From: Rhodococcoides kroppenstedtii
GTDB lineage: Bacteria; Actinomycetota; Actinomycetes; Mycobacteriales; Mycobacteriaceae
Assembly (NCBI RefSeq): GCF_900111805.1
Contig: NZ_FOJN01000018.1
Span: forward strand, 1 to 64,000
DNA length: 64,000 bases
Direction of reading: 5' to 3'
The position numbers and the translations under genes are program-made. The notes under the pieces were generated by a model. The model was not told the DNA's origin and searched no databases. It was given only the letters and a program-made list of their open reading frames with translations. Numbering within the stretch: position 1 is the first letter of the stretch; each line of letters begins with the position of its first letter. Below are positions 2,001 to 62,736 of this stretch, in pieces.

Positions 2001-2031
2001 TTTGTCGGTGCCACTCGGCATACTGGTCGGT

Positions 2032-3142: not shown

Positions 3143-3200
3143 TCGAGTCGTGGAAGAGCAAACCCGATCCGCCTCCAGCAGATGAGCCCCGAGGTGGTGT

Positions 3201-3830: not shown

Positions 3831-3843
3831 CTCGGTCGGTCCC

Positions 3844-3883: not shown

Positions 3884-3994
3884 AAAGGCTGAGGTGGCCA
3901 GCGCAAACAACGGCCTCAGATGAGCTCGGACGAAAGCCTGCGACGTACTCCCGCCGTGAGCGTCCAGACCCGCGACGGCGGGCCTCAGGGCGCG

Positions 3995-4141: not shown

Positions 4142-4563
4142 GACGCGACCACGCGCTTGCGCGCGGCGATCTTGCGCTCTGCATCGCGGCGGGACTCCTC
4201 ACTGAAGTCGCCGCCGGGAGCAACTACCTCAACGGATAGCGGTTCGCAATCCCCGGCAAGGGTATAATTGCAGTCCGCGTCAACAGCTTTCAGTTCTCCT
4301 CCGTCGAACACAGCTGCAACAGTTCGTGTCTCGTACGGCGCATCGAGTGCCGTCGTCACGTCACGGCAATGATCCGTGACGCTCCGACGTTCCTGCAGGA
4401 GGAACGCTGCGACGGGAGCGTCGATGCTGTCGAGTTCGTTCAGGCACATTATCCAGACCCGGACGCGCCATCCTGTTGGCGCGGAAACCATCTGGATCGT
4501 CGTCCAGTCGTCGGAATAGGTGATGTCACCGTAGTAGTCGTACACATCGTGCGTGTCGGTCAT
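4138..4563 (-). CDS. Hypothetical protein, 141 residues
   Basis: The product is acidic at the N-terminus (MTDTHDVYDYYGDITYSDDW) and basic at the C-terminus (RRDAERKIAARKRVVAS), with no membrane segment. The start is supported by a GA-rich ribosome binding region just upstream (AGAAGAGAGACAAC). It is downstream of the iteron cluster and the replication gene in the leftward operon, and is coupled by ATGA to the small zinc protein. No family is recognised. Confidence 0.65.
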   Translation of the reverse strand: MTDTHDVYDYYGDITYSDDWTTIQMVSAPTGWRVRVWIMCLNELDSIDAPVAAFLLQERRSVTDHCRDVTTALDAPYETRTVAAVFDGGELKAVDADCNYTLAGDCEPLSVEVVAPGGDFSEESRRDAERKIAARKRVVAS

Positions 4564-4735
4564 GTTGTCTCTCTTCTGGTTTGGTTCTACCTGGCCGGCC
4601 AGGCCGTGGTCGGTCTGTGCGTGTTAGCTAGGGACGAACTTCTCGTCGCGAAACGCCGTCGTCAATCGCGGTTACCTCTTCTAGGTAGATAGCTCCTCTC
4701 TCCACGTCTTTCACGTTCTGGTCCCAGCTGTTTCG

Positions 4736-4926
4736 CTGTTCTGGTCTCTAGAGACCAGTCCAGAACAGCTCGCCAGAACAGCTCAACTGGAGGTGTTCTC
4801 TGACCTGTTCTGAGGTGTTCCAGAACACCTCTACCAGCGCAAACACTGCTAAACGTCCTCACCTGTTCTGGCGTCGTCAGAACAGCTCGGCGCGTTCACC
4901 TGTTCTGGAGCCTCAGAACAGGTGAA
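4736..4926. repeat. Iteron cluster, candidate replication origin
   Basis: The 8-mer CTGTTCTG or its complement CAGAACAG occurs eight times in 186 bp: forward at 4736, 4805, 4863 and 4900, reverse at 4761, 4774, 4878 and 4914. It also contains a perfect 18 bp palindrome CTGGTCTCTAGAGACCAG (4741-4758), arms GAGGTGTTC/GAACACCTC (4812-4831), and a 13 bp inverted repeat TTCACCTGTTCTG (4895-4907 with 4914-4926). It lies at and inside the 3' end of the replication gene, which fits an iteron-controlled origin. The strong hairpins could also terminate transcription. Confidence 0.75.
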
Positions 4927-6996
4927 AACGTGTTTTGCTCCGCGAGTACCGACAGCGCGCACTTCGAGAACCCCGGTTTCGACGCCGAGCGCGAGCGCAG
5001 CCTTGAACGCAGCCTCCCCGACGTGCAGAGCGCCCTTCAGCCTGGCGAACGAACGCGCGCCGTCGTTCTCGACCTCAGAGAGCACTTCCAACAGGCGAGC
5101 TAGCAACTGCCGATCCTTGTCGTCGTGTTCGCGCGCCGCGTCCCCCAGATCCGAGACTTCGACCGAGAGGTCGAACGCGGCGTTACCCTCCGGTGCGCGA
5201 CGCAACGACGACGGCCACGACACGTCCGTTCCGAACCTGTTGCCGCGCCATTCGGTCAACCTCCCGGTTCGCGACAGGTGGAACCCCATTTCGGGCCAGC
5301 GCTTCCATCCGCTCGAACCGATCGGGCGCTTCGTGTCCGCGTCGTGCGGGGTGTGTGCTTCCATCAGCACTGTGACGCCGTGTTCGTCACGCAGGTCGTC
5401 CACGAGCTGCGTGATCGACTGAAAGAACGGTTCCTCGCGTTCGTTCTGGTCGCTCAGCTTGTAGATGGGACCGACGACGACCAGATCGGGTTTGACCTCA
5501 GCGACCCACTTCCGGACCCGTTCAGCGTCGTGAGGATCTTCCAGCGCGAGGGGTTGGCCGAAGTCCGATCGCGGCAGGAAGAACAGGTTGCCGAGCATCA
5601 CGTCGCGGTCCCCGCCGTTGGCCTGCCACGCCTCGGTCATCTCGCGTAACCGATTCTGGAACAGGTCGTACGGGTTCTCCACGTCCACGAGCAGTACCCG
5701 TCCTGGCTCGAAGCTTCGGCGGTTGACCCAGTCGAACGGATCAAGGCCCGCCGCGACGGAGCCCGCGATCCACCGCAGCAACGTGCTCTTACCCGCGCCC
5801 TCGTCAGCGGTCAGGATCAGTCGGATTCCCTTCGGGAGGCGACCCGGTATGACCCACTCGTATTCGACAGCATCATCGACGTCGAGCAACTGAGCGGCGC
5901 TGAGAGGTACCACGTCGGGTAGCTCCGAACGCGCAGCGCGTGAGACCTCGTCGGTGTAGCGGCGCTTCGCCGTGTCCTTCGCGTGCATCTCGCGGACGTA
6001 CTTCTCGACCAGTGCGTCCGTCTCGGGAGCATCATGACTCTGACCCCACTCCCTCATCCACGGTTGCATGTAGTCGCCCGTGGACGCGACGTACCGTTGA
6101 GCGCTCGCTACGATCGTGCGAACCTCACGCTCCATCAACGGTGTCGAGCCGGGACTGTTGCGCGCCGCCTCCTTCATGAGGACAAGGACCGCGTCGAACT
6201 GGTCAGGACCGAGCGCGCCGAACAGCTTCACGGCTCGGCGGTGAAGGGTGTCGTTTCGCGCCCCCTCCTCGATGGCCTCCAGATAGCCACCAAGGGGATC
6301 AGTAGACGAGTCGTCGCGCTCGTCCTGCGCGATGCTCTGCGTGAGGATCAGCGGCGCTACTGCTGGTGCTGGCGAGTCGTCGCGCCAGCTGTACGTCCCT
6401 CCCGACAGGTGGTTCGACGGAGGCAGAAGAACGTACCCGCCCTCACCGCGAACATCGACTCCCGGCAACCATCCGACTCGATTGCCTACCACTCCATCGT
6501 CCGGGTAACGGAAGTACAGGTGCCGGCCACCGCCACCCGTCAGCGCGGTCAGCGTGTGCGGCACGGGGTTGTCGCGTGTCCACGCTTCCCAGGAGTCGAA
6601 GCCACCCGACTTGCGGTCCACGTCCACGACGAACACTCCGCTGTCGTGCCCAGTCGCTACCGCCCAGTTGGCATCGGGGTACGTGCGCTCCCACGCCGCG
6701 ATCTTCGACGGATCCGCCGAGGCGTCCTTGACGCCGTGCGTCGTGCGCGGATGCTTGCCTGGGCTGCTGCACTCGTCGCCCTTCCCGCACGAGCACCTAC
6801 CCCGCACGATCGGGTAACACGGGAAGATGTGCCAGCCGCGTTCGACGTACTCATCTAGGCGGCGTCGTTCCTTGCTGGCAGACAACGCATCTCGCCCGAT
6901 AGAATCGTTGTCGAGAGGCTTGGTGAGAGGCCGATCAGTGTTGTATCCCCTGGGACTGGCTCCGCTACCGGCGGGGCCATTCTCATGTGTTGGCAT
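4849..6996 (-). CDS. Primase-polymerase / RecA-like helicase replication protein
   Basis: This 715-residue protein should prime and unwind the excised element. The N-terminal third is a bifunctional primase-polymerase domain: cysteines RCSCGKGDECSSPGKHPR, then WAVATGHDSGVFVVDVDRKS with the DxD-type metal site, and GGGGRHLYFRYP. A helical linker (GARNDTLHRRAVKLFGALG) follows. The second half is a RecA/RepA-like ATPase with Walker A DEGAGKSTLLRW near residue 400, Walker B-like RVLLVDVENPYD, and DLVVVGPIYKL. Such two-domain proteins are typical of actinobacterial satellites and plasmids. The gene begins inside the end of a 48-codon gene and ends among the iterons, so it forms the core of a leftward replication operon. 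Confidence 0.93.
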   Translation of the reverse strand: MPTHENGPAGSGASPRGYNTDRPLTKPLDNDSIGRDALSASKERRRLDEYVERGWHIFPCYPIVRGRCSCGKGDECSSPGKHPRTTHGVKDASADPSKIAAWERTYPDANWAVATGHDSGVFVVDVDRKSGGFDSWEAWTRDNPVPHTLTALTGGGGRHLYFRYPDDGVVGNRVGWLPGVDVRGEGGYVLLPPSNHLSGGTYSWRDDSPAPAVAPLILTQSIAQDERDDSSTDPLGGYLEAIEEGARNDTLHRRAVKLFGALGPDQFDAVLVLMKEAARNSPGSTPLMEREVRTIVASAQRYVASTGDYMQPWMREWGQSHDAPETDALVEKYVREMHAKDTAKRRYTDEVSRAARSELPDVVPLSAAQLLDVDDAVEYEWVIPGRLPKGIRLILTADEGAGKSTLLRWIAGSVAAGLDPFDWVNRRSFEPGRVLLVDVENPYDLFQNRLREMTEAWQANGGDRDVMLGNLFFLPRSDFGQPLALEDPHDAERVRKWVAEVKPDLVVVGPIYKLSDQNEREEPFFQSITQLVDDLRDEHGVTVLMEAHTPHDADTKRPIGSSGWKRWPEMGFHLSRTGRLTEWRGNRFGTDVSWPSSLRRAPEGNAAFDLSVEVSDLGDAAREHDDKDRQLLARLLEVLSEVENDGARSFARLKGALHVGEAAFKAALALGVETGVLEVRAVGTRGAKHVFTCSEAPEQVNAPSCSDDARTGEDV

Positions 6997-7982: not shown

Positions 7983-8336
7983 ATGTGCACTACGACCACC
8001 ATTTTCGAGCTTGAGTTCCCGGCGGTTCGCGTCGAGAATCTGATCTTGGGCCTCGTATCCCACTCAGACGATTTCGACCTGTCGGATTTCTCGTTTCGGC
8101 CGACGACTGTTGACATTCTCGTTCGCGACGAGGACGAAGATTCGGTCGAAACCATCACCACGGAGGCATTGCGCGTGGACGTGAATGGCCGGAATCCGTG
8201 GACGAAGATCGGAGAGCTGGTTACTCATATGAGGGCTGCTGACCACGTGATCGACCGCTTTGGCGGCGGGTGGGTAACGCCCAACCGCATCCACCACATC
8301 GCGACAATCAACGAGCATTTCGACGGCGATCGCTGA
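7983..8336 (+). CDS. Hypothetical acidic protein, 117 residues
   Basis: The product starts MCTTTTIFELEFPAVRVENL and is strongly acidic in the middle (VRDEDEDSVETITTEAL), ending HIATINEHFDGDR. The ATG follows a GAAAGAAAAACC leader. An upstream extension to 7698 is open but has poor composition. No family is recognised. It is the only rightward gene between the control region and the capsid gene, and may be element cargo or a regulator. Confidence 0.5.
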   Translation: MCTTTTIFELEFPAVRVENLILGLVSHSDDFDLSDFSFRPTTVDILVRDEDEDSVETITTEALRVDVNGRNPWTKIGELVTHMRAADHVIDRFGGGWVTPNRIHHIATINEHFDGDR

Positions 8337-8371
8337 CGGCACTTGGCCGGTCGTCCATCGCGGGCGACCGG

Positions 8372-9286
8372 CTACCCCTCGGCCTCAACACGGTTCGACA
8401 CTGCTCGCGCGTGTGCGTAGTCAAATACGCTGGGCGGCCACGCCTGATAACTTGTCTCGAAGGGAGGGCGCAGTTCGGGTGATTGCTGTCGTACTAGCGC
8501 CCGCCGGCCAGGTTGACCTCCGAAAAGTGCGTCAAATTCCCGAACGGTCGCGCACGTATCGTCGATATCAGGATGCAGTAGCGCAAGCACCTCACGATTG
8601 GTGTCTCGAAGTTCGGGCATGACTTCGCCTACGAGTTCGTAAATACTCGGATCTTCGTCGAGTGCCCGCAGTTCCGCTTTTATGGCGGCGCTAATCTTGC
8701 TGCTTTCGTAGAAGACAGAGCGGTCCAACCGCATATCGACGAGGGCATATTTTTCGCCCTCGCTAATTCCGGCGGTTGCCTTCATTGCCGGGGCGAGCAT
8801 GGTCGAATGCACCATGATGTGGCGTAGCCTGAAAAGAAGCCGATATGCGAAACAGCGGTCATAAACTGCTTTGAACAATCTCTTCATCTCAACGTGTTCC
8901 GCGGAATCCTTATCGAATTGCCGTACGACCGCGATCAGGCTTTGTTCTTGATGGTGGTGAATAGAAGAGCAGACACCCAGGATCCCAGTACGTATCCTTG
9001 TTGCCCATTCGACCATATCGCCTTCACCGAATGCGGGGATCTTCCCATCGCGGAATGCTTCGGATGCGTCCATGACAGTCCGGAAGAGGTCGAGACCAGA
9101 TTGACGAACGTAGGTAAACATGTTCGCTTCGAGCATGTTGAACATGACATTGTATGCCGCGTGGAAGCGGGTGTAATCATTCTCGTTCAGTTCGCAGATC
9201 GGCTGCATTACAACGGACACCTGCCCCGTCGGGTCTCCGCGTAGGAGCAGGGCACCGTAGCTTTCGATCGCTGCATTGCTTGACAT
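8372..9286 (-). CDS. Unknown protein with HEPN-like RHIMVH motif
   Basis: This 304-residue, mainly helical protein is of unknown family. The middle contains LFKAVYDRCFAYRLLFRLRH followed by IMVHS, an Rx4H arrangement (RHIMVH) in a helical setting like HEPN ribonucleases and many abortive-infection toxins. No signal peptide or membrane helix is seen. It stands alone on the minus strand in the part of the element where satellites usually carry anti-phage cargo. The HEPN assignment rests on the motif only. Confidence 0.55.
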   Translation of the reverse strand: MSSNAAIESYGALLLRGDPTGQVSVVMQPICELNENDYTRFHAAYNVMFNMLEANMFTYVRQSGLDLFRTVMDASEAFRDGKIPAFGEGDMVEWATRIRTGILGVCSSIHHHQEQSLIAVVRQFDKDSAEHVEMKRLFKAVYDRCFAYRLLFRLRHIMVHSTMLAPAMKATAGISEGEKYALVDMRLDRSVFYESSKISAAIKAELRALDEDPSIYELVGEVMPELRDTNREVLALLHPDIDDTCATVREFDALFGGQPGRRALVRQQSPELRPPFETSYQAWPPSVFDYAHARAVSNRVEAEG

Positions 9287-48297: not shown

Positions 48298-50100
48298 GTG
48301 ACTATGGGTGGGCGCGAGGCCGGCGGAGACAAAATCCAATGGACCAGGCTGGACCAGCCGTGGTTCGATCGGATCGTCGAAACCCTGCTTCTGAGAAAGT
48401 TCCGCGGCATAGCTGACGTTGATGTTGTGGACGGTCGTGGTGGCGACGACGGTGTCGATGTCGGGGTCACTTTTCCAGACGGCAGTCTTACTATTTACCA
48501 ACTCAAGTATTACCCCGAGGGTATGTCGGGCGGGTTCGCAAAACGCAGGGATAATGTGAAGAATTCCTACGTCAAAGCGGTGACAAAAAACAAGCCGAAT
48601 CAATGGATCCTTGTCGCGCCGCGCAACTATACGAACTCCGAAAAACGTTTCATACGTGGATTGGCAAGCAAGGCGACGCCGGCGGCTACAAGGCGGCCAA
48701 CTGTAGGATGGTTGGGCCAGGCGGAACTAGATCAGTTGCTCATCGATTACCCCGAGGTCGATCGGTGGCTGACTCTAGACCATTACCGAGAAACTCGCCG
48801 AATATTCGAATACGAACGTATGGCTTTCCTTGAGTCAGGAGCTGCTGATCTGGCTCGTCGGGTCGGCGCGCTTGGCGAACTGGTGGACTCGCGAGACGCC
48901 GACTGGACCTGGGATTTCGCGCGATCTGACGGCGCGGTGGTCCAGACATTGCGTGCGCTCAATGATAATGCCGCTCAGCGAAGTCCCATCAAAATAAACT
49001 TCGACGCGGATCTAGATCCCGAGTCAGCTGTGGGTATTGAATTCCGAAGGTCGATGCAATACGGGTCGCCCTCGCAAGTGGAGATTCCTGGGTCTTCTAT
49101 CACTAAGTTCGAAGTGCTTGGTCCTGAGATCGTACAAGGAATCCCCGATCCAGAAACGTTGATTATGAGGAGCTTGCCTGTAGAAGGTAGCCCGGCGGTG
49201 GGGATGCTCATGGAGGCTCGTCTATCCCACGAAGACAAATTAGTCTTGAAGCAAGAAGGGGTAGTCACAGAAGTCCGCAACGGGACGCATGGTCTTACTT
49301 GCGTCATGTCTTACGTCGGAGGACGTGTGACATTGGCAGCGGAAATACCGTTCAAGAACGGTCCGGACACCCGTACTATGATGGATGTAGGCTACGACCT
49401 AGAGGGGTTAAGTCCGCGTTCAGTGGCAGAGTTATTGCGGTTTGTGCTTGGTCTGCAACTAGCACACGAGGTTGCGTTCTATATCGACGGTCAGTTCCTT
49501 ACGAGATATCGTGGATCGGGCGTTCCTAGCGACGACGACGACGACTTCCGAGAACAACAGATGTTATACAGTTTCGCGGAGGATCTTGCTGGGCTTCTAG
49601 CGCACACCGGTCAGAATATGACGTTTCCCAGAACTTTTGATCAAAAAGATCGGGTGCATGCGCGAGTTGCCCGTCTGCTAATTGAAGGACATGTTGTGGC
49701 GTCGCCTTTGGCTCGCGGCGTTCGGGCACGATTAGTGCCCAATGCCGAATACACCGAGGAAATTGCCGCGATTCTGACCGAGAGGCAAAACAGGCAGTGG
49801 CTGGCAGGTGCATACACTGCACTAATTGGTGACCGCACTTTTGAGCTGGGCAGTTCGGTGGTGGTGCATCCTGAAACGTGGGTAGAGAATGGGCCGGCAG
49901 CCCTCGCAACCTTCGAGCGGGGTCGTTCGGACGGCATTGACTTGGTCCTACGGCCTGGCGACGACCCATACTTTTTTGTCTTCTTAGTGGAGTCCGCTCC
50001 CTCAAAAGAGGCTGAACGGTGGTTTGCAAAGTGGGATTTGGATGGAATTGATGAACCCTGGCTGGACCGAACCTGTCTCACGCCTGTGGATGAAACCTAG
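48298..50100 (+). CDS. Mrr-like nuclease fused to a long unknown domain
   Basis: The 600-residue cytoplasmic product has an N-terminal restriction-endonuclease-like fold: WFDRIVETLLLRKFRGIADV, then GGDDGVDVGV (acidic residues about 50-54) and IYQLKYY (QxK, about 68-70). This is the layout of Mrr-type PD-(D/E)xK nucleases. The remaining 450 residues match nothing I recognise; they lack an obvious Walker motif and may sense or bind a target. GTG 48298 or ATG 48304 are both possible starts. Codon use is AT-richer than in neighbouring chromosomal genes. A role in DNA restriction or phage defence is inferred from the nuclease motif and the island setting. Confidence 0.7.
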   Translation: MTMGGREAGGDKIQWTRLDQPWFDRIVETLLLRKFRGIADVDVVDGRGGDDGVDVGVTFPDGSLTIYQLKYYPEGMSGGFAKRRDNVKNSYVKAVTKNKPNQWILVAPRNYTNSEKRFIRGLASKATPAATRRPTVGWLGQAELDQLLIDYPEVDRWLTLDHYRETRRIFEYERMAFLESGAADLARRVGALGELVDSRDADWTWDFARSDGAVVQTLRALNDNAAQRSPIKINFDADLDPESAVGIEFRRSMQYGSPSQVEIPGSSITKFEVLGPEIVQGIPDPETLIMRSLPVEGSPAVGMLMEARLSHEDKLVLKQEGVVTEVRNGTHGLTCVMSYVGGRVTLAAEIPFKNGPDTRTMMDVGYDLEGLSPRSVAELLRFVLGLQLAHEVAFYIDGQFLTRYRGSGVPSDDDDDFREQQMLYSFAEDLAGLLAHTGQNMTFPRTFDQKDRVHARVARLLIEGHVVASPLARGVRARLVPNAEYTEEIAAILTERQNRQWLAGAYTALIGDRTFELGSSVVVHPETWVENGPAALATFERGRSDGIDLVLRPGDDPYFFVFLVESAPSKEAERWFAKWDLDGIDEPWLDRTCLTPVDET

Positions 50101-51746: not shown

Positions 51747-51789
51747 TGTCGGCTCCGGTCGAAAACTGAGCATGTAGTCCGGTCGAAAA

Positions 51790-53043
51790 GTGAGCACTCA
51801 TCTCGACGATGGAGGAGTGATCACTGTGGAGGACTGGGCGTTGATTCGTCGGTTGCACGGCTCGGAGGGGATGGCGCAGGCGCAGATCGCCCGCCGGTTG
51901 GGGTTGTCACGCAACACGGTGGCGAAGGCGTTGCGGTCGTCGGGGCCGCCGCAGTACGAGCGGGCGCGTGCGGCCCATTCGGCGTGGGCGACGGCCGAGC
52001 CGTCGGTGCGGGCGTTGCTGCGGTCGTATCCGTCGATGCCGACGACGGTGATCGCCGAGCGCATCGGGTGGTCCGGAAGCCGGTCGTGGCTGTCGGAGAA
52101 CGTCGCGCGGATCCGCCCGGAGTACGCCCCGGCCGACCCGGCGGACCGGCTGGTGCATCTGCCGGGTGAACAGGTGCAGTGCGACCTGATGTTCCCCGGC
52201 CGGCTGGTTCCCGACCACACCGGTGCGGTGGGAAGCTTTCCGGTGTTGGTGATGGTGGCGACGTACTCGCGATTCATCGCCGCGATGATGCTGCCTTCGC
52301 GGGTGACCGGTGATCTACTGGCCGGGATGTGGCAGCTGATCTCCACCTCGTTCGGCATGGTGCCTCGAACATTGCTGTGGGACAACGAAGCCGGCATCGG
52401 ACGAGGCGGGAAGCTCTCGCAGGGAGTGCCCGGGTTCTGCGGCACCCTCGCGGTGAAGCTGATCCAGGCCCCGCCCTACGATCCGGAGACGAAGGGAGTG
52501 GTCGAACGCGCCAACGGCTACCTGCGGACCTCGTTCCTCCCCGGCCGGCAGTTCACGTCACCGACCGACTTCAACACACAACTCGACCGATGGTTGTCGA
52601 TCGCCAACACCCGTGAGCACCGGGTCACCCACCGGCGTCCCGTCGAGGCGCTCACCGAGGATCGAGCGGCGATGGCGCCACTGCCACCGTTGCCGCCGGC
52701 GGTCGGATCGACGGTCACCACTCGGCTGGGCCGGGACTACTACGTCGGGGTCGGCGGGTCGTCGTACTCGGTGCACCCCGAGGCGATCGGGCGGTTGATC
52801 ACCGTGACCTCCACCCTCGATCGGGTCCAGGCGTTCTGCGATCACCGTCTGGTGGCCGATCACCCCAGGTTGTGGGGCACCCGCGGACAACTCACCGACC
52901 CGGCACACGTCGAGCACGCGAAAGTGCAACGAGCACAATTCGATTCGAGAGGGATCGATACCGGACCGGCAGGCCCGGTCGAGGTGGAGGTCGCGGACCT
53001 CTCGGCCTACGACACCGTCTTCGGCACCGGGGAGGTCGCGTGA
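51790..53043 (+). CDS. istA: IstA transposase
   Basis: The 417-residue IS21 transposase has an N-terminal HTH (RLHGSEGMAQAQIARRLGLS followed by RNTVAKAL) and a DDE integrase core with VQCDLMFPGRLVPDH, LLWDNEAGIGRGG and a glutamate in KGVVERANGYLR. A C-terminal beta-barrel-like DNA-binding part carries YYVGVGGSSYSVHPEAIG. The start codon is uncertain within the first 12 codons. Confidence 0.95.
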   Translation: MSTHLDDGGVITVEDWALIRRLHGSEGMAQAQIARRLGLSRNTVAKALRSSGPPQYERARAAHSAWATAEPSVRALLRSYPSMPTTVIAERIGWSGSRSWLSENVARIRPEYAPADPADRLVHLPGEQVQCDLMFPGRLVPDHTGAVGSFPVLVMVATYSRFIAAMMLPSRVTGDLLAGMWQLISTSFGMVPRTLLWDNEAGIGRGGKLSQGVPGFCGTLAVKLIQAPPYDPETKGVVERANGYLRTSFLPGRQFTSPTDFNTQLDRWLSIANTREHRVTHRRPVEALTEDRAAMAPLPPLPPAVGSTVTTRLGRDYYVGVGGSSYSVHPEAIGRLITVTSTLDRVQAFCDHRLVADHPRLWGTRGQLTDPAHVEHAKVQRAQFDSRGIDTGPAGPVEVEVADLSAYDTVFGTGEVA

Positions 53044-53852
53044 TGGCCGCCCGCACACCCGCGCCGTCGGAGGCCGACAAGCTCATCGCCCACCACGCCC
53101 GAGCGCTCAAAGCGCCGCGGATTGCCGCCGAGTACCACCGCCTCGCCGAACACGCCCGCAGCGCCGGCTGGTCGCTCGAGGACTACCTCGCCGCGGTCCT
53201 GGCCGCCGAGTCGAACGCCCGCGCGGAATCCGGCGCCCGGCTGCGCATCACAGGCGCCGGATTCCCCGCCATCAAGACGGTCACCGACTTCGACTTCACC
53301 GCCCAACCCGGCGTCGACCGCGCCCAGATCGCCCGCCTCGAAGGCGGCGGCTGGCTCGCCGAAGCCCGCAACGTCGTCCTGCTGGGACCGCCCGGAACCG
53401 GCAAAACCCACCTCGCGACCGCGCTCGGTATCGCCGCCGCGCATGCTGGTCACCGGGTGGCATTCGCGTCGGCGACCGGATGGATCACCCGCCTCGCCCG
53501 GGCGCACCGGCTCGGGCAACTGGACTCGGAGCTGAAGAAGATCTCCCGCATCGGGCTGATCGTCATCGACGAAGTCGGCTACATCCCGTTCGACACCGAC
53601 GCAGCGAACCTGTTCTTCCAACTGGTGTCGAGTCGCTACGAGAAGTCCTCGATCGTGCTGACCTCGAACCTGCCGTTCGCCCGCTGGGGAGACGTGTTCG
53701 GCGAAGCCACCATCGCCTCGGCGATGATCGACCGCATCGTCCACCACGCCGACGTCATCATCCTCAAAGGGACCAGCTACCGCATCAAACACACCGCGAT
53801 CGCGTCCCTACCTTCCGTCGCCGCCGACCGTGAGGCAGACTCGACCACCTAA
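53043..53852 (+). CDS. istB: IstB AAA+ transposition helper
   Basis: The 269-residue DnaC-like ATPase has Walker A LLGPPGTGKTHLATAL, Walker B GLIVIDEVGYIPFD and sensor SIVLTSNLPFARWG. It assembles on target DNA and activates IstA. The start overlaps the istA stop (TGATG), the normal arrangement in IS21. Confidence 0.96.
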   Translation: MAARTPAPSEADKLIAHHARALKAPRIAAEYHRLAEHARSAGWSLEDYLAAVLAAESNARAESGARLRITGAGFPAIKTVTDFDFTAQPGVDRAQIARLEGGGWLAEARNVVLLGPPGTGKTHLATALGIAAAHAGHRVAFASATGWITRLARAHRLGQLDSELKKISRIGLIVIDEVGYIPFDTDAANLFFQLVSSRYEKSSIVLTSNLPFARWGDVFGEATIASAMIDRIVHHADVIILKGTSYRIKHTAIASLPSVAADREADSTT

Positions 53853-53906
53853 CACCTGCTCACTTTTCGACCGGAACAACTGCTCAAATTTGGACCGGAG
53901 CTGACA

Positions 53907-54195
53907 TCTTGTCATCTTCGGGAAATGGTCGATCCAGCAGCAGCGTGAACCGCAGGTCGGTTCCGGGCCCGGCGGGCGCGAGTTCGAACCGGACCTTCGC
54001 GTCAGGACGCGCTGGCCAGATCGACGACCACACGACCACCGACGCGTGCTCGGACACCAACACATGCGGGGCCACTTCGTCGGCACGCAGATGCAGCCAA
54101 GGCCGATGAGTCGGCCGGCCAGGATTGGCCAGGTCGTCGAACACGACATGAGGCGGCGGAGACTGGGTCCTGCGCCTGGTTGCCACGGCCTCCAT
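53907..54195 (-). pseudogene. SRPBCC-domain protein, N-terminal fragment right of IS
   Basis: The frame begins MEAVATRRRTQSPPPHVVFD and encodes an SRPBCC-like beta sheet (HVLVSEHASVVVWSSIWPAR, KVRFELAPAGPGTDLRFTLL), ending FPEDDK at the IS. Joined to the fragment at 51674-51746 it gives a continuous protein of about 120 residues. Its high GC differs from the AT-richer genes on either side. Confidence 0.85.
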
Positions 54196-54519: not shown

Positions 54520-54777
54520 TCATTTGTTGACTTGCTCCAGCGCGATGGCAATCGCAAGCATCCGTTTTTCAATTTCATTAAGGGACTCAACGGAACTTCT
54601 TATTTGCGCTTGAGTCCGGCGAAACAGGTCGTCGACGTTCGCCTTGTTGGGAACCATGTAACGCGTGCTGCGGTGCTTGGATTCAAGCAAGTGGTACGAC
54701 GAGGTAATGTCAGCGGCCGCGCGCTTAGCGGCTGCCGCAACTGCTCGTAACTCTTTTGGGTCTCCCGTGACGGGCAT
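54520..54777 (-). CDS. Small all-helical protein, WXG100-sized
   Basis: The 85-residue product MPVTGDPKELRAVAAAAKRA forms two long helices joined near residues 36-50 (STRYMVPNKANVDD), with a second helix ending RMLAIAIALEQVNK. Size, helical hairpin shape and position next to an EccC-like ATPase resemble ESX substrates. There is no WxG turn and no YxxxD/E tail, so it is not a canonical EsxA/B protein. ATG 54777 has AGAGGAG in front. It is the last gene of the kinase/FtsK operon, 42 bp after the ATPase gene. Confidence 0.65.
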   Translation of the reverse strand: MPVTGDPKELRAVAAAAKRAAADITSSYHLLESKHRSTRYMVPNKANVDDLFRRTQAQIRSSVESLNEIEKRMLAIAIALEQVNK

Positions 54778-54819
54778 GTTCGCTCCTCTTGTTGCGAATC
54801 TTGACAATTTCGATAGGTG

Positions 54820-57800
54820 TTACATACGCTCCCAGAACGTTGGAGGCAACGTGGCGAAGGCTTGAGTCTTTGTGAACTCCCCAGCGGGATTGACGTAGCT
54901 CAATTCCCCCCTGTCCAGCCGCGACGGTCCATAGTCTCCACACAGTGCCAGCGCGTCGTCCGGGCTCGACTTGCCAAGCAGCTTGTGGCCGAACGCCGAC
55001 AGCATCTGACTCCCCAGGGTGTTTTCAAAGCTTCGATAGGAATCGAGTGTGACGACGACATGGACGCCCACGGCCGGCCCGTTGTTGACAATCTTGGTTG
55101 CCAACTCATGAATCTGGCCCCCGCGCGCGGACGACAGATTTGCCGCGGTGTTCACGTGCCCCAGATACACGACATGGGGGTCATTTGCCCTTGGGGTCTT
55201 CTTACGATCAACAACGACGCGGGCTACCGATAGCAGCGCGGCGACGGTGTCTCGCTGCTCGTGGAACCGTTGCCCCGGCCCCAGCCGCGCCGCAGTTGCG
55301 ATAGTGGCCAAGTCGGCGGCAAACGCCGAACCCAATGGACTGAAATCGATAACGTCAAAAGAGATCTTTGAGCGCACGCAACCAGCTAGCAGCATGCCCA
55401 TTAATGCTACCGCGGTCGAGGTCGATGTGTCATCGTAGCTGCTTGGCGTCGCGACGAGCAGGTTCTGGTCTGCTGTGGCCGTGAAGCTTACCGTTTGAGC
55501 CGGCTCAAGACCGTAGTGCACAGATAATGGAAAGGTTATACGATTGCCCTGCCGGACGGCCTTGAGTGCCCTGGCCACCGCGCCGCCAGGCAGGGTCGGT
55601 GTCGAAAAGTCGATTACCTTCGGTCCGGTGGACCGCATTCTCGCCGCGGCGGCTACGATCCTGGCACTACGGACTGTCGCAGCAATAGTGGAGTCGGTCT
55701 CGTGGGTCACTTGTATTTGGAACGTGTCGTTGCTTGACTGCAGGATGGCCTGCCCGGTGCGGGTCAGGTTCGCTGCGTCGCCCATAGTGTCTCCGAGGAC
55801 ACGTCTAGAATCGTCGTCGCTCATCCTCAGCGCCACTCGGGTAGAGATCATGCCGATCGCCGACGGAAGATTGCTCACGCCGAACAGGCTCTGCGTGGCC
55901 AACACTAGGTGGATCCCGAATGCACGGCCTTCGCGAATGATGCGGTTGATCACGTCGGCGGCCCGAGTAGAAGTAGTGTCGTCGCCGGTGTCGAGCAACT
56001 TCTGGAACTCATCGACGATGACGACGATCCTGGGCATTGGATTGCCGCGGTTGATCGGCCGGTAGTCATCGATCTTCTGTACGCCAGCGTCGCGGAATCG
56101 CTTCCCGCGCGTGTACATCTTGTCGAGCAGAGTCTGCAGGATCGCGAGCGTGCATTCTGGGGCTGAGCTCACTGTCACAACCGCAGCGTGGGGAAGCTTG
56201 GCCTGGGCGTATACATTGAATTCGACCCCCTGTTTAGGGTCCAGTAGGTATAGTTGCACATCGGCTGGAGAATAATTGCGGGCAATATCACAGATGACCG
56301 CGTGTAACAGTACGGATTTCCCGCTGCCAGGTCGTCCACCGATGAGTGTGGCGGGTTCGTTGCTTCCGAAGAGCAGTTCGGCCACCCCGCGGTCGCCGCG
56401 TCGTCCAATCGTGACACGTACTCCATCAGCGGCATTACGCCGCCACCAGGTGTCAATACTTTGAGGATCGGCTACCGCCGTGGCGCCGACGGCGGTGTGA
56501 TCGCGTGACGACCGTGCTAACGTGCTGACGCTGTTCGGATCGACGCTGACGCCGGGTACACGGTGCACGTCGGCATCCAGGCGGCGGACCAGCGCATCGG
56601 CGGCAATGGTGTCGATTGACCGAACGGTGGCTATCCATTGCATCGATGGTGTAATTGTCGCGAATGCCTTGTAGTTTGATCGCACGACGGCGTCGCGGAC
56701 ATCTACGAAGCTAGATGACACAGGTTGGGCTTGCGACGCTCCCATCAGGGACCCACGTGTAAGTGCTGGCCAATAACTCGGCGCTTCAGCGTGTGTTGTT
56801 CCGGACAACAACACAGGGAGCCCGGCCGGTACGTCCGGCACTGAGTCATGCCAGGTGGAGGCGTAGGAAGACTGCCGCTGATGCGAAGCTAGCACAATCG
56901 TGTAGACCCCACATCGCGGTCCCGTTTTGATTATGGTTTCCAAACGGGCCAACACCGAAGCGTCGACCGATCCGCTCGGTGCTTGAATGCCGGTGGGATA
57001 ATCCAGCACCACCAGTAACCGATAAGCCTCGGCGGTCTCTCCGGCAAGTTCGTTGTAGGACCGCAGCGACGGGTGCCGTGACCCCAGATAGCGCTGGGTT
57101 ACCTCCGCGATATGTTGGGTCATGCCGTCCAGCAGTGTTTCGAATTCTTTCTGCGTGGTGTATATCTTGGATCCGGTTATCGCAGTCTTGGACTTATCCG
57201 CCAAATCGTTCAGATGGGTGATCGACGAACCAAGCTTCAACGGATCGAAAATTCGCAGTCTCAGTTCGCCGGCCGGCATCAAAGCGACCAGTCGTAAAAC
57301 AGCGGAAACCACGGTATGGGAATCGTTCGTTACAAATCCGCCGTCTGTGTCGAAGTTAACCAGTGCCGGGATCGGAAGCGGCAGTTCGACAGCTGTTCGA
57401 GTCTGCTGCTGGAGATACGAAGATTCCCCCTGTGACAGCCCGAAGCAGGCCAACATTGGTCGGTATGCGATGGCACCAACCTGGATGATTAGCGGCCCGC
57501 CTCCCGCAGACGTTTGGCTCAGTCCGGTCCACGAATCACGCACGCCATCTGGCAATTTCACTCGTTTGACGGTCTCGTGATGACTACGCATCGACGTACG
57601 GCCGATCGGGAACGCGGCAGATACGGCAACGGAAAGACCGTTCATCAGCGTGGCCTGTGCGTCGAGCGCGGCAGATAAAGCCGCGCGCACCTGGGTCTGC
57701 TCGCGACTGCGCGCCTTGATCTTCCCGTTCGCAGTCAGCGGCGTATGTCGGTTGCGCAGCTTTCTGGCTAGTCTGATACAGCGCTCGACTACCATAGCGT

Positions 57801-58050
57801 GTGCGATCTGCCCGACCGCTAGCGTCGGTGAACCCGACTGTGGTTCGCACCCCCAACGGTGCCGGAACGACTCGCGAAGTTCGCGTTCCGCACGCGCGAC
57901 TGCCGCGAGGTCATCGATCAGTTCCCGGCGCGCGATGAAGGCGGCACGCAGCGCGACTTCGGCATCCTCATGAACGGCACCCATCCTCGCCGAGTAGAAG
58001 GCTACGACGCGGTCCGGGTTGCGTTTCTTGGTACTCCAATAGCGCAGCAC
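54820..58050 (-). CDS. EccC/FtsK-like ATPase, 1076 residues
   Basis: This large cytoplasmic ATPase has an N-terminal helical part of about 170 residues, then three FtsK/SpoIIIE-like modules. The middle one is active: Walker A LIGGRPGSGKSVLLHAVICD near residue 570, Walker B RIVVIVDEFQKLLDTG near 680 and IHLVLATQSLFGVSNLP. The first (LIIQVGAIAYRPMLACFGLS) and last (NLLVATPSSYDDTSTSTAVA) modules lack Walker lysines. Tandem modules with one active site are typical of EccC in type VII secretion, but no membrane helices or other Ecc partners are present. It may move DNA or protein. It follows the kinase gene by 10 bp. Confidence 0.8.
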   Translation of the reverse strand: MLRYWSTKKRNPDRVVAFYSARMGAVHEDAEVALRAAFIARRELIDDLAAVARAERELRESFRHRWGCEPQSGSPTLAVGQIAHAMVVERCIRLARKLRNRHTPLTANGKIKARSREQTQVRAALSAALDAQATLMNGLSVAVSAAFPIGRTSMRSHHETVKRVKLPDGVRDSWTGLSQTSAGGGPLIIQVGAIAYRPMLACFGLSQGESSYLQQQTRTAVELPLPIPALVNFDTDGGFVTNDSHTVVSAVLRLVALMPAGELRLRIFDPLKLGSSITHLNDLADKSKTAITGSKIYTTQKEFETLLDGMTQHIAEVTQRYLGSRHPSLRSYNELAGETAEAYRLLVVLDYPTGIQAPSGSVDASVLARLETIIKTGPRCGVYTIVLASHQRQSSYASTWHDSVPDVPAGLPVLLSGTTHAEAPSYWPALTRGSLMGASQAQPVSSSFVDVRDAVVRSNYKAFATITPSMQWIATVRSIDTIAADALVRRLDADVHRVPGVSVDPNSVSTLARSSRDHTAVGATAVADPQSIDTWWRRNAADGVRVTIGRRGDRGVAELLFGSNEPATLIGGRPGSGKSVLLHAVICDIARNYSPADVQLYLLDPKQGVEFNVYAQAKLPHAAVVTVSSAPECTLAILQTLLDKMYTRGKRFRDAGVQKIDDYRPINRGNPMPRIVVIVDEFQKLLDTGDDTTSTRAADVINRIIREGRAFGIHLVLATQSLFGVSNLPSAIGMISTRVALRMSDDDSRRVLGDTMGDAANLTRTGQAILQSSNDTFQIQVTHETDSTIAATVRSARIVAAAARMRSTGPKVIDFSTPTLPGGAVARALKAVRQGNRITFPLSVHYGLEPAQTVSFTATADQNLLVATPSSYDDTSTSTAVALMGMLLAGCVRSKISFDVIDFSPLGSAFAADLATIATAARLGPGQRFHEQRDTVAALLSVARVVVDRKKTPRANDPHVVYLGHVNTAANLSSARGGQIHELATKIVNNGPAVGVHVVVTLDSYRSFENTLGSQMLSAFGHKLLGKSSPDDALALCGDYGPSRLDRGELSYVNPAGEFTKTQAFATLPPTFWERM

Positions 58051-58059
58051 TTGATTACC

Positions 58060-59064
58060 CTACGCCTGAAACTGCTTGAGTATGTCGGCCATGGTGGGAC
58101 GATTCACCGGATTCTCTTCCAAAGACGCTAGCAGCACATTCGCCCGCTTTGTGCCAATTAGCTTGGCGATCCGGATGCGGGCGTCTGGCGAAATATATAT
58201 TGCAATAGCGTCTTCGGAGGAGTGGAATAGTCGCAGTGTTGCCAGGCCAAATTTAAAGACATCGGTCCGGAAGTTCAAATTACGCATATGGGCTTCGGCT
58301 GTGCCTACTTCCAATGATGTGGCGCCCGCCGCGGTTAATTGAGCCACTTGGTCTTGCGCCTTGCGGATTTCCGGTGGGTACCACATCGGGGTATTCATCT
58401 GTTCAATAGGTGGTTGGCCGCCCCTGAAACGAAAGGAGTCGATATCGAGAAACTTTGGAAACAGCTTGCCCTTGTTGGGGCCGTCAAGCTTCGCCGGGTG
58501 TGATACCACGACATTGCGTGGACTGAAGTCGCCCAATACTAAGTTGTGCCTGTGAAAGAACTCAATCCCCTTAATTAGCTTCAGTACGAGAAGGATTTTG
58601 TCCTTGTCGCTGGTGAGCGGTATTCCCAACTCCTGCTTCTGTGCATCCATTCGATAGAAATGCTGAAGTTCGAGCAATGTTCGACTATTCTTATTTGGCA
58701 GAATCATATCGAAAAAAAACGTGTCGGGAATGATTCGCATTAGAATACCCAAGGCGCGTCCGTTTTCCACGACAAGCGCCTTGGGCCATACCGCTAAGGT
58801 GCTTAAATACTTCTGATTCTTGTCATCCAGCGAGTCGGGAAAGAGAATCAACTCCGGCATTCCATGGTACAGCGCGTCACCGTACTTAGCCAAAATAGCT
58901 TTACGATACTGCTTGTACACGATCCTGCCATTCATCCCAGGCATGGTGTAGTCGGCAGCTGAGTACACCTTGGCCTGGCCGCCGCTACCAATTGACGTTA
59001 GCTCGCCCAGTTCCGATTTCTCGACCATGACGTTCTTGGCCGTGCGAGTCACTACTGCGCCCAT
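58060..59064 (-). CDS. Protein kinase-fold protein of TerY-P-like triad
   Basis: The 334-residue product has an ATP loop GSGGQAKVY (26-34), lysine K51 in IVYK, catalytic loop LVLGDFSPRNVVV with D179 and N184, and DIDSF (207-211) in place of DFG. There is no transmembrane or PASTA part, so it is cytoplasmic. The HRD histidine is replaced, as in the atypical kinases of vWA/PP2C/kinase triads. The gene starts 13 bp inside the end of the PP2C gene, so the two are translationally coupled. Likely targets are the FtsK-like ATPase or the vWA protein (inference). Confidence 0.85.
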   Translation of the reverse strand: MGAVVTRTAKNVMVEKSELGELTSIGSGGQAKVYSAADYTMPGMNGRIVYKQYRKAILAKYGDALYHGMPELILFPDSLDDKNQKYLSTLAVWPKALVVENGRALGILMRIIPDTFFFDMILPNKNSRTLLELQHFYRMDAQKQELGIPLTSDKDKILLVLKLIKGIEFFHRHNLVLGDFSPRNVVVSHPAKLDGPNKGKLFPKFLDIDSFRFRGGQPPIEQMNTPMWYPPEIRKAQDQVAQLTAAGATSLEVGTAEAHMRNLNFRTDVFKFGLATLRLFHSSEDAIAIYISPDARIRIAKLIGTKRANVLLASLEENPVNRPTMADILKQFQA

Positions 59065-60326
59065 AAAATGACCGCGGTGCGATCGTCGTCGGCGTTCTTG
59101 TTCAGAAAGGACGCACTCTGGAGGAGTCCCGCGGCATCAAGCGGCCGGGACCAACGTTCGAACAGATATCGACCCACGGGACGCGAACCGGTTTCGATCA
59201 GATCACCGAAGCCGTCGGTGCACAGCACCAAGGCCTGCCCAGCGGCGAGCGCCGCCACCGTCACCCGTGGCGGTCCAGGGTCCAGCGGCAGTGGGGTCAA
59301 CGAATTGTCTATTTCGCCGAGTTCGTTTGATTTTCCGGCACCGATGCGCTGCCATCCGTCCTGGGGACTCAACAGATAGGCGCTGCCGTCGCCGCAGATG
59401 GTCGCTCGAGTAAACGTTCTGTTGCCAGCAGAGTCAGCACGCAGTTCGCAGACAACGACATCGCAAGTCGTGGCGACGTGGGTGGCGAGGGTACGGTCGC
59501 TGACTGTCTCTGGTGCGACCGGCGCGCCGTCGGCGTCGACGATATGCCTCCCGACCAACTGCAATGCGGTCGCTCGAACCGCGACTCTGCACGCTTCGCT
59601 GATCGCAGGCCAGTCCTGAGCTCCCAGACCCGGTCCCCTGATGCGCGACCGGATTTCGGTCATAGCGGCGAACGCCGCCCGTTCCGCGCCGAGGTGAGAC
59701 AACGCACCTTCGGAGACGCCGTCAGCCACGACCCCAATGAACCAGTCCCCCTCGGTCCCAATCGCGTAGTGGTCCTGACGCGGAGCGCCCAGCTGATGAT
59801 GTCCGGGCCCCCGCACCGATACCGCGCCGACATAGAGCCCTTCACTGGCGAACCCGCTGTCTACCATTGCTTCCGGCCGGTGCCCACCACGCAAGTGCGG
59901 CAGGATGCGGGGCACAATCCGGTGCATCTCACCCATGTCGCCGACTGCGACGCGACCTTCGTATTGCCCATGGGTGATCGCTTCGGTAGCGGCCGGCCCC
60001 GGCTTGTGCCACGCGGGCACATCGTTGTCGACAACGGGTTCGTTGTACTTGGTTTCCCCAGCATTGCTCGACGGAGGCGCTGTCGGTTGGCTGTGAGCTG
60101 GTACTTCCCCTCCGTGTGACGAAGAGAGCGGAGCGTCCAAGGCGGCCCCGAGCTCTCCTGAGTTCGGCGTTTGCAGCCGTTCGCTGACCACCTCGTGGAT
60201 GGGATGCAACGGTGCGTCGGTATCAAATGCGAGAGGGGGTTGCGGTTGGCTAGAGGGATCGACCGGGTCAGGAGCATCTGGGGCTCTGTGCTGTCCAGCC
60301 CGATTCGCTGCGCGAGGTTCTGCCAT
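59052..60326 (-). CDS. PP2C-type protein phosphatase
   Basis: The 424-residue product has a disordered proline-rich N-terminal region of about 190 residues, then a PP2C domain: VSVRGPGHHQLGAPRQDHYA, WFIGVVADGVSEGALSHLGA (metal-binding DG), ATICGDGSAYLL, LVLCTDGFGDLI and the final NADDDRTAVIL with metal-binding Asp. ATG 60326 is 10 bp after the vWA stop with AAGG in between; the longer frame to 60449 overlaps the vWA gene and is rejected. It should reverse the action of the neighbouring kinase. Confidence 0.9.
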   Translation of the reverse strand: MAEPRAANRAGQHRAPDAPDPVDPSSQPQPPLAFDTDAPLHPIHEVVSERLQTPNSGELGAALDAPLSSSHGGEVPAHSQPTAPPSSNAGETKYNEPVVDNDVPAWHKPGPAATEAITHGQYEGRVAVGDMGEMHRIVPRILPHLRGGHRPEAMVDSGFASEGLYVGAVSVRGPGHHQLGAPRQDHYAIGTEGDWFIGVVADGVSEGALSHLGAERAAFAAMTEIRSRIRGPGLGAQDWPAISEACRVAVRATALQLVGRHIVDADGAPVAPETVSDRTLATHVATTCDVVVCELRADSAGNRTFTRATICGDGSAYLLSPQDGWQRIGAGKSNELGEIDNSLTPLPLDPGPPRVTVAALAAGQALVLCTDGFGDLIETGSRPVGRYLFERWSRPLDAAGLLQSASFLNKNADDDRTAVILWAQ

Positions 60327-60336
60327 GAACCGCGCC

Positions 60337-61068
60337 TTAGTCCAGCTGACCCAGCGCGACAAGAAAGTCATCGTCGTCCTCAAGCATTCCCTTGATGTCG
60401 ACGTTCGGGCCGTCGTTATCGGTGGCACCTGCCGTGGCGGACGCGACAACGCTTTGCATAAGCGTCGCCACCAATGTGCCGAGCGCCTGCGCGGCGTCGG
60501 CGCCCTCTCGCGTTGCTATGGCCACACCGCGTCCAGCCGTATATTGTTGGAGTGTTTCGGGAGTAACATCGTTGCCGACGCCGAACACGCACATGTTGGG
60601 TCGCCGGGTGAATTCTGGATCTGTCAATTCTTTGAATGCTGCGTCTCGCGCCGTGGGCGCACAGATCGGTTCGCCGTCGGTGATAAACACGACGAAAGGA
60701 CGGTAGAGCGTGAAGCCGTCACCCTTAAGTGTTTGGTAGTCCTGTTCGATCTGCTTGCGTAAAACACTGAAAGCTTTGGAGTAATCGGTGCCCCGATTTG
60801 CGGTGAACGTTGGAGCCTGAATCGCGCTACCCCTCGTTAGCGGCACAACCACGTGCGCATCGTCGCAGAAGTCAATAACGGAGAAGCGCGCCGCTTGGTC
60901 AACCATCGGTTCGCTCTTGCATGTCGCAATGACGGTCGGGACGATCTCGTTGGCGGCCTCAATCTTGCCGTCGTCCTTCATGGAGTACGACGTGTCGACG
61001 ACGAGATAAATCGGAAGTGCCTTGTTTTTGTCGTCTTCCAACGTTTCCATCATGCTGCTACCCGTCAC
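60337..61068 (-). CDS. TerY-like von Willebrand A domain protein
   Basis: The 243-residue product is a single vWA domain: LPIYLVVDTSYSMKDDGKIE with an intact MIDAS DxSxS (residues 25-29 as DTSYS), FCDDAHVVVPLTRG, FTANRGTDYSKAFSVLRKQI (MIDAS Thr/Ser region) and FVVFITDGEPICAPT. This matches TerY. GTG 61068 has AAAGGA six bases upstream. It heads the leftward operon vWA, PP2C, kinase, FtsK-like, small helical protein. vWA proteins bind partners through Mg2+, so it may nucleate the complex. Confidence 0.9.
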   Translation of the reverse strand: MTGSSMMETLEDDKNKALPIYLVVDTSYSMKDDGKIEAANEIVPTVIATCKSEPMVDQAARFSVIDFCDDAHVVVPLTRGSAIQAPTFTANRGTDYSKAFSVLRKQIEQDYQTLKGDGFTLYRPFVVFITDGEPICAPTARDAAFKELTDPEFTRRPNMCVFGVGNDVTPETLQQYTAGRGVAIATREGADAAQALGTLVATLMQSVVASATAGATDNDGPNVDIKGMLEDDDDFLVALGQLD

Positions 61069-61566: not shown

Positions 61567-62736
61567 GTGATCAGGAGCATCGCTGATGCGGCGCGGCCGA
61601 GCAAACCACTGACGACGAAGCACTTCGCCGAGGACGATGGCGATGACAGGACGGAGCTGGCCTCGGTGAACATTCATCACATGGTTGTTGTTGACGCTAC
61701 GCGTTCGTCGGCCCTCGACCGGTGGACCGCAATGCTCGCAACGTTTCGTTCTGTCGGGGATGACTCGACAGTGTCGGTGTTGGCCTTGGATGATGGCAGC
61801 CTCCGGACCATTCTCGCCGCTACCGCAGTGCGAACAGCGCCAGAATCGTTGGCACTGCCAGCGCTGAGCGGGCAGGGGCCGCACGACGTAGCCCACCAGT
61901 TGCTCAGAACCGTCCTTTACGTCCAGGTGCAACTCGATGAACCCGTCGTTTACCTGTACATGGTTACCGATCCAACGCTAGACGACCAGCGACTGAAGGA
62001 ACTGCGCGGCGCCGCCAACGTACGAATCCAACGGCACCCCTTGGTAACCGATAATTACGGCCCACCACGCCTGTCCCGGTTCGTGCGCAACGCCGCGGTC
62101 CTTGTGTGTGTGCTGGCGGCCGCCGTGCTGGGCTATCACAGCGTTTTCGGAGCTCAATCTGCCGCGCCCCCGGTGCAGTCGACCACGACGGCAACCACGA
62201 CACCTGCCCCCCCAGGGGTCGCCGGCCCCGAGGCGCCAACAGCAATCAACTCGGGCTGGAATCTTGCGACGGTTCCATCGGTGCCGCCAGGTAGATGTGT
62301 CAACCAGTATGCCTATGCCTCACGGCTCAACGCGCCTCTCTTTGCGGTCGTGGATTGCACCTCGCCGACGGCGCTGATGAGATTAGTTCAGGTCATCCCA
62401 ATCGTCGACCCGTCGGTCAACACCTGTTCGCGGCAAAGCCCCGAATACCCTTGGTACAACGGGACCAACCAATATTGCTTTGTCGCGGAACTGCGGAGCG
62501 GAATGTGCGTTCCTGTTCAGAAAGACGGCGACAGGTTCAACGCAGCCTTTGCTGTGCCCGCCAGCTGTCGCGATCCGCTCGCACTCAACGGTCGGCTATC
62601 TTCTGAACAAGCTACGGACAGGCAGCAGTTACAGATCGAATCAGTCAACCCGGTTGCAACCGCACCGCCATGTACAAACCTGACCTACCTGCTTGAGGGC
62701 GTAGCGCTGAAGGTGTGTGCTCGCCTTCATTCCTGA
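61567..62736 (+). CDS. Single-pass membrane protein divergent from TerY-P-like operon
   Basis: The product of up to 389 residues has a cytoplasmic part with a vWA-like first strand (HHMVVVDATRSSALDRWTAM, then STVSVLALDDGSLRTIL), one membrane helix (NAAVLVCVLAAAVLGYHSVF), a Thr/Pro linker (TTTATTTPAPPGVAGPEAPT) and an external domain with several cysteines (GRCVNQYAY, VDCTS, NTCSRQ, QYCFVAELRSGMCVPV). GTG 61567 or GTG 61666 (with GGAG upstream) may be the start. It probably links the cytoplasmic phospho-module to the cell envelope. Confidence 0.7.
   Translation: MIRSIADAARPSKPLTTKHFAEDDGDDRTELASVNIHHMVVVDATRSSALDRWTAMLATFRSVGDDSTVSVLALDDGSLRTILAATAVRTAPESLALPALSGQGPHDVAHQLLRTVLYVQVQLDEPVVYLYMVTDPTLDDQRLKELRGAANVRIQRHPLVTDNYGPPRLSRFVRNAAVLVCVLAAAVLGYHSVFGAQSAAPPVQSTTTATTTPAPPGVAGPEAPTAINSGWNLATVPSVPPGRCVNQYAYASRLNAPLFAVVDCTSPTALMRLVQVIPIVDPSVNTCSRQSPEYPWYNGTNQYCFVAELRSGMCVPVQKDGDRFNAAFAVPASCRDPLALNGRLSSEQATDRQQLQIESVNPVATAPPCTNLTYLLEGVALKVCARLHS

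Follow-up and report, generated by a model that had tools for sequence, protein, structure and literature searches.

Triads of a von Willebrand factor A (vWA) protein, a PP2C phosphatase and a kinase of the TerY-P type give protection against phages (PMC7699616, PMC10889362). Here we report on a TerY-P-like triad in Rhodococcoides kroppenstedtii that is followed by genes for an EccC/EssC-like ATPase and a WXG100-fold small protein. The window, i.e., the whole stretch of DNA analysed, comprises 64,000 nucleotides (nt), positions 1 to 64,000 of the forward strand of contig NZ_FOJN01000018.1 (assembly GCF_900111805.1). Pairings of this sort have already been predicted in gene clusters for phage defence. 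The TerY-P CoCoNuT operons of PMC11090510 carry an EssC-like FtsK ATPase without membrane domains, of which only module 2 is predicted to be active, alongside WXG100 proteins, and secretion is favoured there as the role of the pair, with the absence of the membrane domains noted and a different mechanism expected. WxG and FtsK genes also accompany TerY-P in Helicobacter pylori v225d, and the two together have been termed a minimal type VII set (PMC4978471). The triad kinases are described with one of two C-terminal fusions, a zinc ribbon (CoCoNuT form) or an OB-fold (Gao form) (PMC11090510), and actinobacterial kinase-PP2C-vWA trios are on record beside GTPase systems (PMC7159879).

The initial annotation of this DNA took the combination to be unlike anything described, a claim that PMC11090510 and PMC4978471 do not support; known parts are arranged here in a new and unusual way, which does not make the locus a new kind of machine. 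We postulate a stress or anti-phage cassette that stands on its own and has a phospho-gated, cytosolic EssC-like motor, and give this reading a probability of roughly 45%. Our confidence is high for the identification of the parts and moderate to low for the mechanism.

Operon layout and the signalling triad

The five genes lie on the minus strand between 54520 and 61068, vWA first, then PP2C, kinase, ATPase and small protein, and with the likely starts the successive gaps are 10, −13, 9 and 42 nt, a spacing that matches what one operon would show and agrees with the tight packing first proposed. Sigma-70-like promoter sites in the region are not above chance (two, against a shuffle mean of 2.9), so it is from the spacing that we infer the transcription unit. 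Five chance open reading frames (ORFs) are very unlikely because all five proteins are homologous to known families. The usual guide for a membrane helix in a 19-residue hydropathy scan is 1.6; the highest value among the five proteins is 1.58, at residue 187 of the ATPase, a peak modelled as a strand, and by hydropathy none of them appears to have a clear membrane helix.

The TerY-like vWA protein (60337..61068, minus strand, 243 amino acids (aa); VWA_2 2.1e-10) matches TerY-annotated plasmid genes at ~33% identity in tblastn, and D25, S27, S29, T94 and D131, which we take to be the metal ion-dependent adhesion site (MIDAS) residues, are kept in 39–41 of the 41 family rows. The PP2C ORF as listed begins at 60449, and translation more likely starts at an ATG at 60326, 10 nt past the stop codon of the vWA gene, giving a phosphatase of 424 aa (59052..60326, minus strand; PP2C_2 3.7e-16) whose PP2C domain follows a long N-terminal linker; D226, D243, G244, D354, D412 and D455 (numbered on the 465-aa ORF) are kept in 32–33 of 34 rows. 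The Ser/Thr kinase (58060..59064, minus strand, 334 aa) reaches only 0.0022 against Pfam Pkinase, a weak match below the cut-off, and is recognised by a profile built from the kinases of other triads; its K51, D179, N184 and D207 are kept in 38–40 of 40 rows. Presumably these conserved residues have catalytic or metal-site roles, which we assign from familiar motifs, and judging from the sequences the triad enzymes look active.

When 394 genomes of the class were searched for the kinase, 17 other genomes matched, and a search of 301 genomes of the family for the vWA protein matched 20 others (34 distinct in all); all 34 neighbourhoods were retrieved. The member that served as query is present by construction, and the sequences behind the triad profiles come from these loci too. 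All three genes occur within the retrieved stretch in 31 of the 34, which bears out the triad of TerY-P type recognised at the start; they are not always adjacent, the kinase sitting a few kilobases (kb) away in some loci, and three loci are short of one member (L141, where the contig starts, L147 and L150). The window kinase contains no cysteine in its 334 aa and hence no zinc ribbon. Moreover, the PADLOC TerY model (PDLC02224) matches no window protein, though it does match the vWA protein of the CoCoNuT-like plasmid locus L037 discussed below (1.5e-5); it likewise misses all three proteins of L104, which is also an actinobacterial locus. Because of these two features, the kinase without zinc ribbon and the vWA protein unrecognised by the model, 'TerY-P-like' is the best label, rather than standard TerY-P. 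A strongly hydrophobic segment, lacking in the window kinase, occurs in many of the triad kinases, and one (L112, 6175-8283) has a C-terminal beta-propeller region.

The ATPase and its WXG100-fold partner

The EccC/EssC-like FtsK-superfamily ATPase (54820..58050, minus strand, 1076 aa, GTG start; FtsK_SpoIIIE 3.4e-31) consists of N-terminal helices, a degenerate module 1, a live module 2 and a degenerate module 3, and its lone P-loop followed by a DE motif lies at residue 572, in module 2, so that the three-module protein with one live Walker site proposed in the initial annotation is upheld. Its predicted structure (14 sequences in the alignment, mean predicted local distance difference test score (pLDDT) 66.0) shows the three ATPase modules and, at low pLDDT, long helices at residues 13–65, 77–105 and 107–162. 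Affinity to EccC and EssC emerges from both sequence and fold. A profile of the ATPase family searched against solved chains finds T. curvata EccC, EccC5 and YukB, and Foldseek ranks EccC and EssC first, followed by FtsK and TcpA. The best structural match, EccC 4nh0, has an E-value of 2.2e-26 and a template modelling (TM) score of 0.36 by query, low for the whole chain, and modules 2–3 reach TM 0.60–0.62 by length of the 4n1a chains. The NCBIfam models EccCa, EssC and EccCb match at 2.2e-31, 6.2e-29 and 5e-27, all hundreds of bits below their cut-offs. In a tree the window ATPase, on a long branch, joins those of L042, L043 and L036 in a poorly supported group (82/37).

A viral origin is unsupported: a scan of viral contigs gave 600 pattern matches and no relative, and the 196 matching phage records cover the ATPase only partly, none reaching 80%. 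A conjugation coupling protein was likewise rejected, with no relaxase or mating-pair gene recognised among the scanned proteins. An Hsp70-like gene (motif match) adjoins the ATPase of another branch in 9 of 35 loci (L040, L045, L046, L047, L049, L050, L056, L058 and L133), and six loci of Planctomycetes and Verrucomicrobia (L121-L126) encode ATPases of ~1300 aa, five of them, two being profile seeds, with a WXG100-like gene and a ~70-aa gene.

The ORF of the small protein extends to 54807 with a TTG start; we favour the internal ATG at 54777 (54520..54777, minus strand, 85 aa), because most aligned relatives have few residues before the conserved D16. By itself the protein matches no Pfam family above the cut-off, WXG100 being reached at an E-value of 0.093 (13.5 bits against a gathering threshold of 27.3), and it is the only one of the 10 aligned small proteins that does not match WXG100 at 0.01 or better. 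Nine of the ten have W-x-D and none has W-x-G; the window copy has neither and appears to have lost the tryptophan. Its model has two helices (17–47 and 55–94, mean pLDDT 84.1), as expected of the 85-residue helical hairpin first described, and WXG100-family structures take all of the first 34 Foldseek rows, with TM about 0.6–0.8, the best E-value being 0.013 and none reaching 0.001. From this model and from its aligned relatives we consider it a WXG100-fold protein. Type VII export is signalled by Y-x-x-x-D/E near the C-terminus; in none of the ten does such a motif start within the last 25 residues, and in three it stands further upstream (in L039 it starts at residue 64 of 90). Among solved structures the profile ranks H. 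pylori HP0062 highest (3fx7 4.8e-16; 2gts 8.1e-16), then EsxB/EsxA; HP0062 is reported to be a dimer of hairpins that carry WRD at the bend, and to be encoded in a cluster with an FtsK/SpoIIIE protein (PMC3397514).

Such a partner recurs beside related ATPases. A profile seeded with the copies of the window, L036, L043, L122 and L123, which match by construction, also finds L037, L038, L039, L042, L044, L121, L124, L125, L171, L172 and L173, so that 15 of 38 ATPase loci, including the four seeds other than the window, have a WXG100-like partner. Twelve of these 15, seeds included, have a second small protein of the ~70-aa class. A hidden copy of the latter in the window was rejected, the best E-value being 0.4 among 104 ORFs with filters off. 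The window protein matched no plasmid record, a result of little weight given that the same search missed the known Rhodococcus plasmid relative.

A tie to Ter through TerD-fused relatives

Five of the six close actinobacterial relatives of the ATPase that were scanned have a Pfam TerD domain at their N-terminus (2.7e-29 to 2.6e-12; L043, L036, L171, L172 and L173, the sixth, L042, being without it), and a Pfam scan of the window ATPase shows none. Downstream of the TerD-fused ATPases lie genes for a protein of ~270-340 aa, judged by size and place only, a protein of ~72-74 aa and a WXG100-like protein. Two of these loci, L171 and L036 on a Rhodococcus plasmid, look like copies of one system; the plasmid of L036 is typed as conjugative and has separate TerD genes nearby. 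Elsewhere in the host genome there are five matches to TerD genes. Because of the gene layout of the TerD-fused and the triad-linked ATPases, we consider that one motor family may answer to Ter signalling, by TerD fusion in some lineages and by a TerY-P-like operon here. The TerD-fused sister ATPases would constitute independent gene-layout evidence for such a response; no novelty is claimed for the fusion.

How common is the combination?

ATPase matches at 1e-20 or better occur in 188 of 397 genomes of the order, and many of those listed cover module 2 only. At 1e-45 the ATPase is found in five of 391 genomes of the family; it is present in two of 37 of the genus, and a profile at 1e-80 finds it in four of 396 genomes of the phylum (own genome included in all these counts; in the order, family and phylum searches the best two candidates were scored per listed genome, so some relatives may have escaped). 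We inspected 35 ATPase neighbourhoods, namely 6 from plasmid or phage records, 19 of 187 order matches, 7 loci of a genome-contig scan (which gave at least 7 loci, all included), G957, G1114 and G1154, and then three more (total 38), with flanks of up to about 10 kb per side, several contigs being shorter.

An ATPase of this kind is present in none of the 34 triad neighbourhoods, and a triad is present in one of the 38 ATPase neighbourhoods, that of L037 on a Caballeronia plasmid. Also encoded there are a CARF nuclease resembling Card1 and a helicase with AAA_11/AAA_12, parts that PMC11090510 lists for Type III-A, and the locus therefore looks like a Type III-A CoCoNuT. The co-occurrence search called for by the initial annotation thus has a divided outcome: the same five-gene form appears in no other sampled genome, and both kinds of module are combined in L037 and in the publications cited. 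Put differently, triad and ATPase/WXG modules come together elsewhere, and in this sample the free-standing five-gene form was seen only in the window. We found no description of that form among the titles and abstracts of the publications listed.

Divergent gene and genomic surroundings

A divergent gene at 61567..62736 (plus strand) encodes a protein of 389 aa with one strong hydrophobic segment at 176–194, and is a tentative sixth component. L102, whose vWA protein is the closest, has a gene (8009-9151) in the same divergent position beside its triad, and the N-terminal part of the window protein resembles the product of that gene (phmmer E 0.037 in a set of 6963 ORFs; BLASTP E 1e-4 for the pair; score 74, reached by none of 500 shuffles, which gave 62 at most). 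Both proteins have hydrophobic segments. No relative was found in the other 33 triad loci, and the LppU/SCO3897 domain is matched at 0.0074, below the cut-off. The protein may be a sensor.

Guanine-cytosine (GC) content falls from ~70% at 14–48 kb to 58–60% at 54–62 kb, 84–86% identity over 3 kb to two same-genus genomes ends near 47.69 kb, an IS21-type element (transposase and IstB) lies beside the operon at about 51747-53907, and the contig ends at 64302, 302 bases past the window; from these observations the operon is located in a variable region. An 84% identical copy of the IS21-type element is present in the same-genus genome G826. A 600-aa ORF without a Pfam match at 0.001 occupies 48298-50100, a low-GC stretch just past the border of the variable region. 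At the other end of the window, two serine-recombinase genes and a Prim-Pol/AAA gene (468-6996) suggest a mobile element.

Proposed function and alternatives

In the cassette that we postulate, a signal would reach the triad, perhaps relayed by the divergent membrane protein. A TerY-P-like switch, composed of the vWA protein as scaffold or metal sensor, the kinase and the PP2C phosphatase, would then set the phosphorylation state of the EssC-like ATPase and/or of its WXG100-fold partner and in this way control the motor. The ATPase would be cytosolic and probably hexameric, and the partner, most likely a dimer, would serve the motor as an adaptor or as an allosteric activator and would not be exported cargo. 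Docking of the small protein on the ATPase, and activation by it, is proposed because the pair recurs and because an EccC structure described as having a bound signal peptide (4n1a) offers a precedent. Once released, the motor may act within the cytosol, given that membrane parts are lacking, and remodel or translocate a polypeptide or nucleic acid there, and the outcome would be defence, by analogy with the phage-protective TerY-P systems of PMC7699616 and PMC10889362.

Several observations weigh against this interpretation. The same five-gene form is absent from all other sampled genomes, so selection for the linkage is not visible here, and the PADLOC TerY model passes over the window proteins. 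Confidence in the ATPase model is moderate, and the partner profile finds nothing in 23 of the 38 ATPase loci. The ~70-aa second small protein was not found in the window, which may mean that the cassette is reduced or in decay. Finally, a Pfam scan recognised no nuclease, toxin or other effector in the operon. A wider form of the proposal would have the whole type VII-like ATPase/WXG100 line, unanchored in the membrane, as a cytosolic effector of Ter signalling (via TerD fusion or a TerY-P-like operon) and thus as an immune or stress machine that does without secretion; we put this forward tentatively, the odds being against it.

Minimal type VII-like export, under phosphorylation control, would have the ATPase move the WXG100-like protein and maybe other cargo across the membrane, alone or through the ESX system of the host. 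WXG/FtsK pairs in operons without a secretion apparatus are a puzzle in themselves, and the authors of PMC11090510, noting the missing membrane domains and expecting another mechanism, yet favour secretion. EccC/EssC is the closest solved relative of the ATPase, the partner has a WXG100 fold, the host has its own EccC and EccB locus on another contig, and the name minimal type VII set (PMC4978471) points the same way. Nonetheless, we consider export unlikely: the five proteins are without a clear membrane helix, no EccB/D/E-, EssA/B- or EsaA-like protein was recognised among them or in the divergent gene product (Pfam and NCBIfam scans), the C-terminal Y-x-x-x-D/E is absent, and related ATPase/partner pairs reside on Caballeronia and Helicobacter plasmids. 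A full ESX locus was rejected, as the operon has none of the other Ecc genes and the EccC/EccB locus of the host is elsewhere.

Another possibility is that the ATPase pumps or remodels DNA in the manner of FtsK and TcpA, with the triad switching on the exclusion or processing of invading DNA. Foldseek does retrieve the FtsK motor (E 1.7e-13) and the coupling protein TcpA (E 6.3e-12), and SspH (2.9e-30) and mad8 (4.4e-23) are the best matches of the ATPase in the PADLOC defence library. A DNA motor nevertheless seems improbable, given that sequence and fold are nearer to EccC/EssC, that Pfam recognises no DNA-binding domain, and that the recurring WXG100-like partner would point to a protein ligand. 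Least probable is a chance juxtaposition, co-transcribed and functionally unlinked, of triad and ATPase/WXG cassette in a low-GC variable region: the counts of 34/34 triad neighbourhoods without the ATPase and 37/38 ATPase neighbourhoods without a triad, GC of 58–60% against about 70% at 14–48 kb and the adjoining IS21 element would fit it, but gaps of 9 and 10 nt with a 13-nt overlap, the union of the same two kinds of module in CoCoNuT operons and the presence of another Ter domain, TerD, in relatives of the ATPase all argue against it.

Comparison with known systems

With ESX/Ess the locus shares a three-module FtsK-superfamily ATPase and a WXG100-fold partner; it differs in that the ATPase has no clear membrane anchor and its module 1 is not live, the operon contains no other Ecc/Ess genes, and the small protein has no W-x-G. 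Stand-alone TerY-P defence systems likewise group vWA, phosphatase and kinase genes, but no ATPase or WXG partner is mentioned for them in the available text of PMC7699616 and PMC10889362, and their kinase has an OB-fold C-terminus according to PMC11090510. The TerD-fused actinobacterial FtsK modules provide some of the closest full-length ATPases, with the same small partner and a link to Ter; there, in contrast, TerD is fused to the ATPase, no triad is nearby, and the ATPase has two further companions, of about 270-340 aa and of about 72-74 aa, that are missing in the window.

The H. pylori v225d island resembles the window in uniting a TerY-P triad, WxG and FtsK in one island (PMC4978471). 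The Type III-A CoCoNuT differs from the window in more than one respect: no McrB/McrC-like, CARF-nuclease or helicase gene was recognised among the operon genes and the scanned neighbours, on a contig that ends at 64302, there is one vWA protein rather than two and one small protein rather than two, the kinase is without a zinc ribbon, and the gene order is different. Free of a recognised CoCoNuT core, the five-gene form would allow kinase, phosphatase, motor and partner to be tested as one small unit. What it has in common with Type III-A is the combination itself, i.e., a TerY-P triad with an EssC-like FtsK ATPase in which only module 2 is live, an N-terminal helical stretch, no clear membrane helix, and a WXG100-like protein.

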